A DNA stretch of 33,341 bases from Planctomycetota bacterium. GTDB taxonomy: Bacteria; Planctomycetota; Phycisphaerae; Tepidisphaerales; Tepidisphaeraceae. Shown here piece after piece: positions 1,279 to 27,228 of the stretch. Each line of letters starts with the position of its first letter. Position 1 is the first letter of the stretch. A program made the position numbers and the translations under genes. A model generated the notes under the pieces. It was not told the DNA's origin. It ran no database searches and saw only the letters and a program-made list of their open reading frames with translations. The stretch spans positions 1 through 33,341 of the forward strand of contig JBCDKH010000016.1 in assembly GCA_038746835.1 (NCBI GenBank), given 5' to 3'.

Positions 1279-1821
1279 TCAGTCGCAATCAATCTGCAGA
1301 ATGCTTTCATCACCCCATATAGCAGCATCGCGCTCCTGCTTACAAACGATGTATGCGAAGCAAGCCTTCAGGTGCGAGAGATCGGTAACGGGCTTGGGGC
1401 TACAGCTCGAACTCCAGAGCCTTCCTGGCAGATAACTTTTCATCTCGAAGCTGCTGCCTATCTTGATGCCGCCCACGGTACGACGGACGTCTGCATAGTT
1501 GCCGGGATGGCGTAGTAGCAGGTGCGCGTGTGCGTCACCGACGCTCACCGAAGCGAGACTGACTTCTCGGCGAATGGCAGCGTCCCGGATCGCTTCAAGC
1601 GTCTTTGCCCGAAGACCTTCAGGAATTAGCACGGGTGGTGACGCACGTGACTTCGCGTAGCGGTGCAGTCCCGCATGCTCACCTGCAGGGGGCGGCGTTT
1701 TGTAGTCGCCACTCGAATGGACGCGGTGATCGTGATCGCGAAAGCCACGTGGGTCTCCGGGAAGCCAGCTGCAATGGGTGCCAAGGACGACGTGCCACCA
1801 GTTTCGGAACGGTGGTTTCAC
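1279..1821 (-). CDS. REP-associated IS200/HUH-type transposase-like protein (RAYT candidate)
   Basis: 180-residue protein, read from a GTG at 1821. It matches a planctomycete group of IS200-like (Y1_Tnp fold) proteins that I recall: an early SWLPGDPRGF segment, a YKTPPP/LHRYA region, the metal-binding HUH pair in DAHAHLLL (His-x-His), then GRLW...GC..KPV and YIV. The expected role is cutting single-stranded DNA at hairpins and so mobilising REP elements. Support from context is strong: paired REP hairpins lie immediately on both sides (1191-1274 and 1845-1897), the arrangement known as a REPtron. The catalytic tyrosine cannot be assigned with certainty; Tyr residues are present between the HUH motif and the C-terminus. 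It could be active or a domesticated, non-mobile copy. The reading frame is intact. Confidence 0.68.
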   Translation of the reverse strand: MKPPFRNWWHVVLGTHCSWLPGDPRGFRDHDHRVHSSGDYKTPPPAGEHAGLHRYAKSRASPPVLIPEGLRAKTLEAIRDAAIRREVSLASVSVGDAHAHLLLRHPGNYADVRRTVGGIKIGSSFEMKSYLPGRLWSSSCSPKPVTDLSHLKACFAYIVCKQERDAAIWGDESILQIDCD

Positions 1822-3390: not shown

Positions 3391-3401
3391 GGTGATCGCA
3401 G

Positions 3402-3505
3402 AAAGCTTGAAGGAGGAAGCTTGAAGCCTGAAGAGCCGAGCGTCGTTGCGGCAAACAACCGCACCCATCCGACCTTCAAGCTTCAGGCTTCACCCTTCAA
3501 GCTTT
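3402..3505. repeat. Inverted repeat (AAAGCTTGAAG family), copy 1, between gatC and gatA
   Basis: A 32-base left arm (3402-3433) starts AAAGCTTGAAG and ends GAAGCCTGAAG. A complementary right arm (CTTCAGGCTTC...CTTCAAGCTTT, ending 3505) follows after a spacer of about 45 bases. The element fills most of the 129-base gap between gatC and gatA and may attenuate transcription or alter mRNA stability in the operon. A second copy lies at 26559-26637; the left arms agree at 29 of 32 positions. Confidence 0.8.
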
Positions 3506-3519
3506 CCGGCCATCAGGCT

Positions 3520-15905: not shown

Positions 15906-15976
15906 GCGAGCCCCGAGCGTGAGCGAGGGGTTTCCGCGTGACGACCGGACACCCCTCGCTCACGCTCGGGGCTCGC
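15906..15976. repeat. Perfect 26-bp inverted repeat (GCGAGCCCCGAGCG family)
   Basis: The left arm at 15906-15931 and right arm at 15951-15976 are perfectly complementary over 26 bases, with a 19-base loop. The arm contains a GAGCGTGAGCGAGGGG core. It fills the gap between the Gfo/Idh gene (ends 15989) and the isomerase/epimerase gene (starts 15875) and could terminate or process their transcript. No run of T follows on either strand. Confidence 0.9.
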
Positions 15977-17168: not shown

Positions 17169-17215
17169 AGACACGGCCAACGACCCGCACTGTGCGCATC
17201 GGGTCAATCATGTCC

Positions 17216-17313
17216 GTCATCCTGAGCGAGCGAAGCGAGTCGAAGGACCTCGTCTGGTCCGCCACTGATGCGCGGGCGAGGTCCCTCGGCTCGCCGCGCT
17301 CGCTCGAGATGAC
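17216..17313. repeat. Imperfect inverted repeat (GTCATCCTGAGCGAGCG family)
   Basis: The arms 17216-17252 and 17277-17313 are complementary at 31 of 37 positions with a 24-base spacer. The outer ends read GTCATC...GATGAC and the core contains GAGCGAGCG and GGACCTCG. This type of intergenic element, beginning GTCATCCTGAGC and containing GTCGAAGGACCTC, is widespread in GC-rich bacteria. It lies between the Gfo/Idh gene start and the AraC gene stop. Confidence 0.85.
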
Positions 17314-17332
17314 GATGGAGATCACTGACCCC

Positions 17333-24867: not shown

Positions 24868-25213
24868 GCAGCAGGACGTTTCAGCTCGTTGTACCCGAGG
24901 CTTGCGGGAGTCTGACCCCAATCCGTGGAGTCGGGGTTTCGGGCTAAGTAACGGCGACGCCGTCCCAAAGCCCTGAAGCTGCTTGCCTCATTCCTGCAGC
25001 GCGGTTCCACCTTGTTGTAACGCAAGTACAGGCCGTTGGAACGGCAGCCGGGAGGGGGTGGGGCCACGCCAAACTGTCGTTTTGTCGGCTTCGGCTTCAG
25101 TGGGCTCGTGGCGTACTAGATAGGTGTGGCAGAGCGACGCGATGGGCGGCGTTCAACAGGCAGCGGGGCGAGGCTCTGCGGTCACTTCTTACAACAGCCA
25201 GGGAATCAACGTC
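24868..25213. other. Intergenic region without a recognisable gene
   Basis: About 346 bases between the NLR gene and the next start. It contains a GGAGTCTGACCCCAA segment similar to sequence often seen near REP/transposase remnants, a short palindrome ACGGCG-A-CGCCGT near 24950, and a GC-rich end. I see no tRNA-derived repeat, no terminator with a T-run and no convincing promoter. The reading frame opening at 25124 probably does not start there. Confidence 0.5.
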
Positions 25214-25900
25214 ATGGACATCACCTACAGCACCAACGACAACACACTCAAGAATCGCGTACGCGCTTTTCTGCGGACTGTGGCGGAAAGGGAGTCGTTG
25301 TTCGGACTCACAACGCAGTCGATATCGGACCTGCAGACGAGCTTCGACCACTTCGTGGAAGCTTCTGATCTCGTCGAGGATCCGAATACGAACTCGCGGG
25401 CGGCGTATGCCGATAAGCGGTCTAAGAAGGAGCGGCTGGTCAACGGGTATCGGACGGTCGTGGCCGTGGCGCAGGCGTGGCCGGAGCAGACGGATGAGAA
25501 GCGGCCGGAGCTGGGCATCACCATTCGCGATCGCAAGCCGACGCGTCGGCCGATTCCGACGGAGCTGGCGACGATCGAAGTGATCAGCCTTCTGCGTCGG
25601 CAGGTGACGGTGCAGGTTCGGAACCCCGAGGGTGGCCGCGGCAAGGTCGCGGGGGCCGCGGCGGTGCAGGTCTTCACGCACGTCGGCGACACCGCACCGG
25701 CGGCGGGGACGGACTGGACGTTTGCGATGTCGACCGGCAAGACGCGGTTCGACGTGCTGTTCCCGGACATCGTGCCGGCGGGGGCGAGCGTGTGGATCGC
25801 GGTCGCGTACCACAACGCGGCAGGCACGGGGCCGATGAGCAAGGCGATCCAGGTCAATCTCCCCGGCGGCCAGGCGGTTTATGCCCGAGAGGCGGCTTAA
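25214..25900 (+). CDS. Hypothetical protein with C-terminal beta-sandwich-like region
   Basis: 228 residues from the ATG at 25214; an AGGGA about 10 bases upstream could serve as a weak ribosome-binding site, and the earlier in-frame ATG at 25124 adds 30 low-complexity residues. The N-terminal half is helical and charged (LKNRVRAFLRTVAERESLFGLT, SDLQTSFDHFVEASD). From about residue 125 the sequence becomes beta-rich, with Pro/Gly turns and a PAGASVWIAVAYHNAAGTGPMS segment resembling fibronectin type III-like domains. No signal peptide. I recall similar unannotated proteins in planctomycetes but know no function. The nearest element downstream is an inverted repeat. Confidence 0.7.
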   Translation: MDITYSTNDNTLKNRVRAFLRTVAERESLFGLTTQSISDLQTSFDHFVEASDLVEDPNTNSRAAYADKRSKKERLVNGYRTVVAVAQAWPEQTDEKRPELGITIRDRKPTRRPIPTELATIEVISLLRRQVTVQVRNPEGGRGKVAGAAAVQVFTHVGDTAPAAGTDWTFAMSTGKTRFDVLFPDIVPAGASVWIAVAYHNAAGTGPMSKAIQVNLPGGQAVYAREAA

Positions 25901-25928
25901 GTCTTGGATCGCGGAAGTCTTTGGCTTT

Positions 25929-26043
25929 AAACGCAAAGGAGCAAAGAGGCAAAGGAACGCAAAGGCCGGAGAAGATGATGGTGTTCAACTCTGAACATTC
26001 TTCTCTTCTTTGCGGCCCTTTGTCACCTTTGCGCCTTTGCGTT
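25929..26043. repeat. Inverted repeat of the AACGCAAAGG family
   Basis: The left arm (about 25929-25975) consists of repeated GCAAAG words (AACGCAAAGG, GCAAAGAGGCAAAGG, AACGCAAAGG) and ends GAGAAGA. The right arm (about 25999-26043) is broadly complementary and ends CTTTGCGTT. A 23-base spacer separates them. It fills the gap between the hypothetical gene and the GNAT gene. The same style of CGCAAAG-rich intergenic element is known from several planctomycete and other genomes. Confidence 0.8.
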
Positions 26044-26085: not shown

Positions 26086-27228
26086 ATGGACCTTTCGATT
26101 TACAAACCGGCGGTGGATCTTGGCGACATGGAGTGGTTTGCGGAGGGCATTGTCGTTCGCAAGGCGGATGAGTTTGATCTGCCGTCGATCGAGTCGTTGC
26201 AGAAGCGGCATTCGGAGGAACTGGGGTACTTCAACCGGCAGGTGATGGCGGAGAAGCTGGAGCGAGAGGAGATTCTCGTCGCGCGGGAGGCGAAGTCGAA
26301 GCGGTTTGCGGGATACGTCATCGCGAGCGATTCGTATCAGAAGCGGCAGGAGGTCGGGATCATCTACCAGATGGGCGTGCACGAGCGGTTCCGCCGGCGT
26401 GGCGTGGCGGCGTCGCTGTTGAAGGGGTTGTGGGCGTCGTGGCCACGCGGCGTGCGGCTGTGCAGTGCGTGGTGTGCGCAGGATCTGCTGGCGAACAAGT
26501 TCTGGGAGTCGATGGGGTTTGTGCCGTTGGCGTACCGGGCCGGGAGTGAAAAGGGCAGAAAGCTTGAAGATGGAAGCGTGAAGCCTGAAGACTCAGATTC
26601 CGGCCCTTCTGGCTTCAAGCTTCGTCCTTCAAGCTTTCCGTCGAACCGCGTGCATCTGTTCTGGCAGGCTCGGACGACGGCTGGGGACGAGACGCCGTGG
26701 TGGTATCCGTCGTTGACGGGGAGCGGGGCGTTGCGGGCGGATCGGGTGGTGTTGCCGGTGCCGACGGATCAGCACTGGAGCCAGACGCGGCCGGCGGTGT
26801 TGCCGACGGTTGCCTTGCCCGAACAGCCGGAGGAAGTCGAGCCGTTCGAGGGCAAGTCGCGGAAGTATGCGGACGGGGTGTCGGAGTGCGAGGAGGGGTT
26901 GTTGTGGCGGGACGGCAAGCGACTGATGACCCCCGAGCAGTGCATGCAGGCGCAGGGCGCGTCCCAGGGCGGGCCGTGGATGGTGCCGTCGGATGTGGAG
27001 CTGGTGCGCGAGTTGCCGCGGCCGCTAAAAAAGGAGAAGAAAGCGAAGAAGGTGCACGATCCGCGGCTGGTGGCCTTCGCGCGGGATTTGCGTGACGATT
27101 GGCTGGAGCACGTCAACAGCGAGCGGTTGCTGTCGGGCGAATCGCGCTATGCGGCGCGCCGGCACCTGCCCACGAGTCCTTTCGCGTCGTTGCCCGAGCG
27201 AGAGCGGCCGAGGCTGCTGGCGGCGTGA
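26086..27228 (+). CDS. GNAT family N-acetyltransferase-like protein with in-frame repeat insertion
   Basis: 380 residues. The start ATG at 26086 has a Shine-Dalgarno (GAGGTGG, 26072-26078). Residues 20-150 form a GNAT fold: IVVRKADEFDLPSIESL at the N-terminus, the acetyl-CoA loop R103-R-R-G106-V-A (motif A), then FWESMGFVPL. Residues 158-184 are encoded by an inverted repeat that also occurs between gatC and gatA, so this segment is almost certainly inserted and probably a disordered linker. The following part (VHLFWQARTTAGDETPWWYPS, VLPVPTDQHW) and a basic tail with KKEKKAKK are not part of the GNAT domain. Acceptor substrate unknown. The frame stays open across the repeat. Confidence 0.75.
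   Translation: MDLSIYKPAVDLGDMEWFAEGIVVRKADEFDLPSIESLQKRHSEELGYFNRQVMAEKLEREEILVAREAKSKRFAGYVIASDSYQKRQEVGIIYQMGVHERFRRRGVAASLLKGLWASWPRGVRLCSAWCAQDLLANKFWESMGFVPLAYRAGSEKGRKLEDGSVKPEDSDSGPSGFKLRPSSFPSNRVHLFWQARTTAGDETPWWYPSLTGSGALRADRVVLPVPTDQHWSQTRPAVLPTVALPEQPEEVEPFEGKSRKYADGVSECEEGLLWRDGKRLMTPEQCMQAQGASQGGPWMVPSDVELVRELPRPLKKEKKAKKVHDPRLVAFARDLRDDWLEHVNSERLLSGESRYAARRHLPTSPFASLPERERPRLLAA
26559..26637. repeat. Inverted repeat (AAAGCTTGAAG family), copy 2, inside the GNAT-like gene
   Basis: Left arm 26559-26590 and right arm 26606-26637 are complementary at 27 of 32 positions with a 15-base loop. The left arm agrees with the gatC/gatA copy (3402-3433) at 29 of 32 positions, and flanking bases (GCAG before, CCG after) also agree. 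It is read through in frame with no stop codon. Confidence 0.88.

Follow-up and report, generated by a model that had tools for sequence, protein, structure and literature searches.

In-frame palindromic repeats in a planctomycete GNAT acetyltransferase and recurrent capture of different repeats in the same loops of Phycisphaerales proteins

The stretch of DNA that we analyzed (the window, 33,341 nucleotides) comes from a draft genome of 3.85 Mb and 335 contigs, in which it is contig C16. Throughout, C denotes a contig (of this genome unless a G number precedes it), G a genome and L a locus. The features in the window on which our analysis centers are as follows.

26086..27228, + strand: gene for a GNAT acetyltransferase with an extra conserved C-terminal region (open frame and Pfam matches; one of six paralogues)
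26290..26304, + strand: site A, the predicted beta2-beta3 turn at residues 69-73, empty here and lying between strands 63-68 and 74-81 of the structural model
26558..26638, no strand assigned: palindromic repeat S1 (81 bp), in frame at site B of the GNAT gene
3401..3506, no strand assigned: second copy of S1 (106 bp), between gatC and gatA, with inverted repeats I2, I4 and I8
15906..15976, no strand assigned: copy of the REP family that flanks a transposase domain in valS (inverted repeat I7, arms 97% complementary)

The frame at 26086-27228 is open throughout and encodes 380 amino acids. Matches to Acetyltransf_7, Acetyltransf_1 and Acetyltransf_10 exceeded the Pfam cut-off and fell within residues 48-148. 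The top Foldseek matches to a model of the paralogue on contig C168 (mean pLDDT 72) were GNAT enzymes (probability 1.00); the host protein is thus assigned to this family by domain and by fold. A phage origin of the gene was considered and rejected: PHROGs returned generic acetyltransferases only, and six matches on viral contigs were 28-34% identical and confined to the GNAT domain. Directly upstream, at 25124-25900 (+), lies a gene for a protein of no assigned family, relatives of which occurred near the GNAT gene in 28 of the 45 loci compared (these loci partly overlap); together they may make up a conserved pair of genes present in several copies. Between them, at 25920-26040, we noted by eye a palindromic stretch of GGCAAAG-like units.

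An inverted-repeat scan placed the arms of S1 at 26558-26590 and 26606-26638 (33 nt each, 85% complementary). The folding energy of its + strand was -41.9 kcal/mol, compared to a mean of -26.3 for shuffled sequences (z -4.5), and none of 200 shuffles folded as well. Using blastn (E<=10) we found S1 at 31 distinct places in the genome, two of them (C75 and C35) weak. In 21 full-length copies the 5' arms are degenerate heptamer tandems of the unit GAAGCTT, with a lag-7 self-identity of 0.65 vs 0.28 in shuffles. The arm of the gatC-gatA copy at 3401-3433 differs from the 5' arm of the GNAT copy at 3 of 33 positions by our own count, and the opposite pair of arms is 92% identical over 38 nt. The initial annotation had described a 79-base palindrome in the GNAT gene that matched the gatC-gatA element at 29 of 32 arm positions. 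Arms, fold and some 30 genomic copies bear out the palindrome, and our count agrees with the likeness, while the length is corrected to 81 bp. An Rfam scan of the window returned one tRNA only and no known RNA family at S1. The window also holds a 38-nt inverted repeat at 17215-17314 (84% complementary) whose sequence differs from that of S1.

S1 supplies residues 158-185 of the GNAT protein, with the predicted peptide [R]KLEDGSVKPEDSDSGPSGFKLRPSSF[P], between the blocks FVPLAYRAGS and RVHLFWQ, and this junction is conserved in the aligned homologues. Homologues without S1 have 5-17 residues between the same blocks. The insert is absent from the same-genome paralogues on C87 and C1 and from other genera, all of which join across the site without it, and was therefore gained. 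None of the homologues found outside this genome has the same residues at this position; such a match would have spoken against capture. A sequencing error hiding a frameshift is also unlikely, since three paralogues on three contigs keep an open frame with conserved sequence before and after the insert. The AlphaFold model of the window protein (mean pLDDT only 66) puts strands 146-150 and 190-194 on either side of the insert and gives residues 157-178 and 182-185, most of its length, a pLDDT under 50. In the C168 model, strands 58-63 and 97-105 border site A, and strands 170-176 and 213-220 border site B. By these models S1 occupies the predicted beta6-beta7 turn (site B). In-frame placement between conserved parts had been noted previously; the span is residues 158-185 instead of 158-184, and the models place it in this turn, not in a linker between domains.

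S1 also occurs in frame at site B of the paralogues on C39 and C168, and the C168 gene carries an additional in-frame copy at site A. The Mfd of this genome contains an in-frame S1 before its CarD-like domain, and its MnmG contains one between the PFSY-type and QVPC blocks. Counting a copy as in-gene when a recognized domain lies on both sides, there are six insertions in five genes; S1-spanning open frames at other places, among them those upstream of the KARI (C200), transglutaminase (C19) and BatA (C96) domains, were left out of this count. Five of the six read S1 in the same frame, KLE-GSLKLE. The exception is site A of C168, where reading begins in a different frame and the copy has lost the stop of that frame. 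This bias is partly mechanical, because the usual S1 arm has a TGA in the other two frames. Five of the six in-gene lengths (81, 90, 81, 91, 81 and 81) are multiples of three; among the remaining 15 full-length copies this holds for 3 (Fisher p 0.014). The initial annotation had proposed a search for further in-frame copies and for a favored frame, and both were found.

The presence of S1 at the same site and in the same frame of C16, C39 and C168 raises the question of gene conversion between paralogues, and the repeat DNA of these genes is indeed 84-91% identical compared to 57-64% for the 5' flanks over 300 nt. However, the flanks of filled copies were no closer to each other than to those of empty ones (for example, 0.92 for C168-C87 and 0.90 for C168-C16), and S1 is present in Mfd and MnmG as well. 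The three genes sit in separate parts of the GNAT tree. In addition, C15, the sister of C39 (support 100), carries a different repeat at site B, the 3' arm of which has copies at five other places in the genome. As the flanks show no conversion tract, we do not attribute the three site B copies to gene conversion and consider this origin quite improbable.

To define occupancy across the family we kept 39 distinct core GNAT ORFs from Phycisphaerales. We dropped duplicate ORFs, L094 (Bosea, E 3e-4), the six viral loci L095-L100, G012:C1 (L038/L108, 36% identity) and G021:C60 (L120, a C-terminal fragment), while an outgroup without insert (L091-L093) was used in the tree only. The genomes are draft assemblies, mostly MAGs; almost all relatives come from Phycisphaerales-type MAGs, and the few labelled otherwise (Methylococcaceae isolate 8 and Vicinamibacteraceae PLA1) may be mislabelled.

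The predicted beta2-beta3 turn that we call site A lies between VLIAE and GYLIxxDRY and was filled in 28 of the 39 ORFs. Two ORFs have 12 residues there: L089, counted as empty, and L069, counted as filled on account of its repeat-like sequence. Sorted by eye, the 28 inserts form 12 sequence groups, some of which may be subfamilies of one another: S1, a GAGCCGCG-type (9 ORFs), a GGCGAGACGCC-type (4), a CACAGAG-type (3), a GTGAACAGT-type (3), and others with 1-2 each. Fitch parsimony required at least 19 changes of group on the tree compared to a mean of 25.9 with shuffled labels, and related copies therefore share groups to some extent. Nevertheless, the sisters L037/L044 and L081/L083 (support 100 for both pairs) and L068/L069 (96) carry different groups, and filled and empty copies stand side by side in L076 vs L089 (93) and in L056 beside three empties (99). 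The inserts of L034 and L041 (G011) are very long, up to 257 residues, and seem to consist of several nested repeats. A third variable region, C-terminal, in L046 (C15) and L036 (G021) also seems to hold in-frame repeats (RDEGTEGQRD..SVPLSLSPSVPSV and NEPRALATG..VADASGS).

Site B was filled in four of the six copies in this genome, by S1 in three and by the other repeat in C15, and in none of the 33 ORFs elsewhere. Its restriction to this genome is not obviously explained by random insertion and loop tolerance alone. One possibility for this observation is that insertions are targeted, the mobilizing enzyme or copying mechanism preferring a DNA feature at the turns, for example purine-rich codons resembling the GAAG-rich arms, so that the same codons would be struck repeatedly whatever the selection. 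Two families at one site in one genome would fit such a preference, and the empty target in C1 is purine-rich (AGCACGAAGAAGAAG). On the other hand, families with different ends have site A in common, the recurrent sites in MnmG, Mfd and ValRS described below encode different residues, and loop tolerance by itself already predicts insertion into turns. We therefore regard targeting as unlikely.

We searched 20 of the site A inserts (others, for example L082, are outside this set) against their own genomes as two joined queries, with up to 40 candidates scored per genome; the copy counts are lower bounds. With the GAGCCGCG group taken as a single family, at least 16 of the 20 occur again elsewhere in the genome they come from. 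L081 has three additional places listed, two of which match the positions of other GNAT genes (L079 and L085), and the same is true of two of the three for L049 (L036 and L043). For L032, L074, L083 and L087 the matches listed included no second copy.

As a second measure, we compared the folding of 46 inserts with that of same-length windows of their own genes. Thirty folded better than 95% of these windows (16 of 28 at GNAT site A, 4 of 4 at site B, 2 of 6 in MnmG, 4 of 4 in Mfd and 4 of 4 in ValRS), while hairpin stability was ordinary for the gene in the remaining 16. That many hairpins are strong as RNA too, together with the high occupancy of site A, could be taken to mean that the inserts are adaptive, either as a useful flexible arm or as an mRNA hairpin that controls expression, with selection favoring filled turns. 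This is also quite improbable, as there is no conservation of the peptide, which differs between sisters or is missing from one of them, and the models give the inserts the low confidence expected of disorder.

Recurrent insertion was also observed outside the GNAT family. In 26 genomes of the family we found MnmG in 23 and Mfd in 25. Leaving out the ends, 20 aligned MnmG sequences have long internal insertions at two sites that recur (in 5 and 6 sequences) and a single one elsewhere, and 23 aligned Mfd sequences have them at one site that recurs (in 5 sequences) and, again, a single one elsewhere. The MnmG loop holds six unrelated-looking inserts (G000, G014, G001, G012, G003 and G016) and the Mfd turn at least four (G000, G021, G041 and G022), such that the same loops are filled by different repeats in different genera. 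At least six of the eight non-S1 inserts searched had further copies in their own genomes; for the MnmG inserts of G012 and G016 there were none among the matches listed.

A Pfam search of the genome for Y1_Tnp domains led to an unusually long open frame on C157. Sequence motifs and a class I synthetase domain identify it as valyl-tRNA synthetase, and no other such match in this genome reaches E<=1e-60. The Y1_Tnp match scored 25.3 bits (cut-off 23) and has pieces of the synthetase domain on both sides. The inserted unit is the following.

C157:3323-3979 (L226:3323-3979), 657 bp: a 72-nt REP, a Y1 domain and a 72-nt REP, stop-free and in the valS frame

A third REP lies farther along the same gene in the same frame. 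By our own count of rows the genome has this REP at 31 places, of which valS accounts for three. In G010 the same ValRS loop contains another repeat-like, hairpin-forming segment; the loop was readable in 4 of the 23 loci listed. PF01797 matched at three places (C63, C157 and C87), and these contigs have no copy of S1, but the assembly consists of 335 contigs. In the window, an IS200-like (Y1_Tnp) ORF at 1279-1821 (-), with an E value of 0.004 below the Pfam cut-off, is bracketed by matching inverted repeats at 1189-1276 and 1873-1913. It looks like a decayed REP-transposase unit.

As all but a few of the assemblies are drafts and repeats are classic points of misassembly, it could be speculated that assembly or binning joined unrelated sequence inside these genes. 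We consider this highly improbable, given that the frame is continuous and the protein conserved on both sides in dozens of genes from many assemblies.

The explanation that we favor, and hold to be probable, is that mobile hairpin repeats insert widely and that only in-frame, stop-free copies in tolerant turns survive; S1 is best explained as a non-autonomous dispersed hairpin repeat of this kind. The data above show the identity of the repeats, their dispersal and frame, the empty homologues, the different families at one site and, in a predicted model, the position in a turn; from them we infer the mechanism of insertion, purifying selection as the filter, translation of the inserts and their near-neutrality for the enzyme. 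S1 would have spread through the genome, and one copy would have entered the beta6-beta7 turn of the GNAT protein in frame. Most insertions into genes would destroy the protein and be lost, the survivors being those that kept the frame, brought no stop and fell in a surface turn able to tolerate some 30 disordered residues. Phycisphaerales genomes would hold many families of repeats and few very tolerant turns, presumably two in the GNAT family, one or two in MnmG, one in Mfd and one in ValRS; because of this, the same turns would be struck repeatedly by the repeat that happens to be active in the genome, and the inserts would turn over. Broad insertion followed by such a filter would account for the favored frame, the multiple-of-three lengths, the location in turns and the different families at shared sites, as well as the match of most inserts to repeats of their own genome.

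In-frame capture of repeats is already known from Rickettsia and from REPs, and in excerpts of the literature both appear as the same kind of event as that described here (PMC2229807, PMC10969869, PMC3733652, PMC4853749, PMC8266576). Rickettsia palindromic elements (RPEs; Ogata et al. 2000, 2002) are, as described in parts of PMC2229807 and PMC10969869, 105-146 bp long and, like S1, dispersed palindromic repeats in frame inside conserved genes. S1 shares one defining feature of RPEs, being a palindromic dispersed repeat found in frame in protein genes and between genes. As far as these excerpts go, both settings have several families per genome, mostly tolerated, and RPEs are also inserted in RNA genes such as those for tmRNA and rnpB. 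S1 differs in coming from another phylum and a GC-rich genome, in its length (63-113 bp vs 105-146 bp) and in its heptamer-built arms; and, unlike in the RPE accounts excerpted, many families here occupy the same turn of the same protein. The initial annotation had likened the repeat to RPEs. The likeness holds for the way of working and not for membership, as the host is not a Rickettsia and we do not claim that S1 belongs to the RPE sequence families.

Intragenic REPs of the GTAG/CGTC type, in the excerpt of PMC3733652, encode 20-30 residues, and many of them lie in genes for DNA repair, some in genes related to tRNA; their hosts include Planctomycetes and Verrucomicrobia, and recB of two Xanthomonas carries different REPs at about the same site. 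Compared to that account, same-site recurrence is common here and involves GNAT, MnmG, Mfd and ValRS. These REPs are recognized by a palindrome of 20-40 bp that carries an unpaired GTAG or CGTC tag at one of its ends. Inspected by eye, the 21 full-length copies of S1 and their flanks showed no common tag, typical ends being GAAAGCTTGAAG and CTTCAAGCTTTC. A REPtron, in which REPs flank a RAYT/TnpA-REP tyrosine transposase (PMC3733652 and PMC8266576, in part), resembles the C157 unit in its order of REP, Y1 transposase domain and REP. Unlike the REPtrons of those excerpts, the whole C157 unit lies in frame, within the sole valS gene of the genome. The fusions of ERIC, Correia and QMITE elements, given in parts of PMC2229807 and PMC10969869 as small non-autonomous MITEs fused in frame to genes, are like S1 in that respect, but neither a target-site duplication nor a parent transposase or IS has so far been found for S1. 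Our searches of open-access literature listed nothing on repeats of this kind within proteins of Phycisphaerales, on a REPtron within valS, or on same-site recurrence across families at this density. The recurrent capture of many repeat families in the same loops and the valS unit therefore extend the known phenomenon, and they go beyond the single insertion that was initially annotated.

A bolder reading, which we put forward tentatively and as rather less likely to be right than wrong, is that a few beta-hairpin turns of Phycisphaerales core enzymes are standing landing sites where unrelated mobile hairpin repeats, and once a REP-transposase-REP unit, are inserted, translated and in time replaced, making the ValRS of this bacterium a synthetase-transposase chimera. 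If this is true, mobile DNA has a habitat in essential proteins; and expression of the valS unit would mean that an essential enzyme has an internal transposase domain. Lineage-specific insertions in planctomycete proteins may, as a warning, be translated repeats. A given turn of a given protein, occupied by one mobile repeat or another or left without any, provides many natural replicates in which to test how selfish DNA becomes protein, which positions accept some 30 residues, and whether the inserts become useful.
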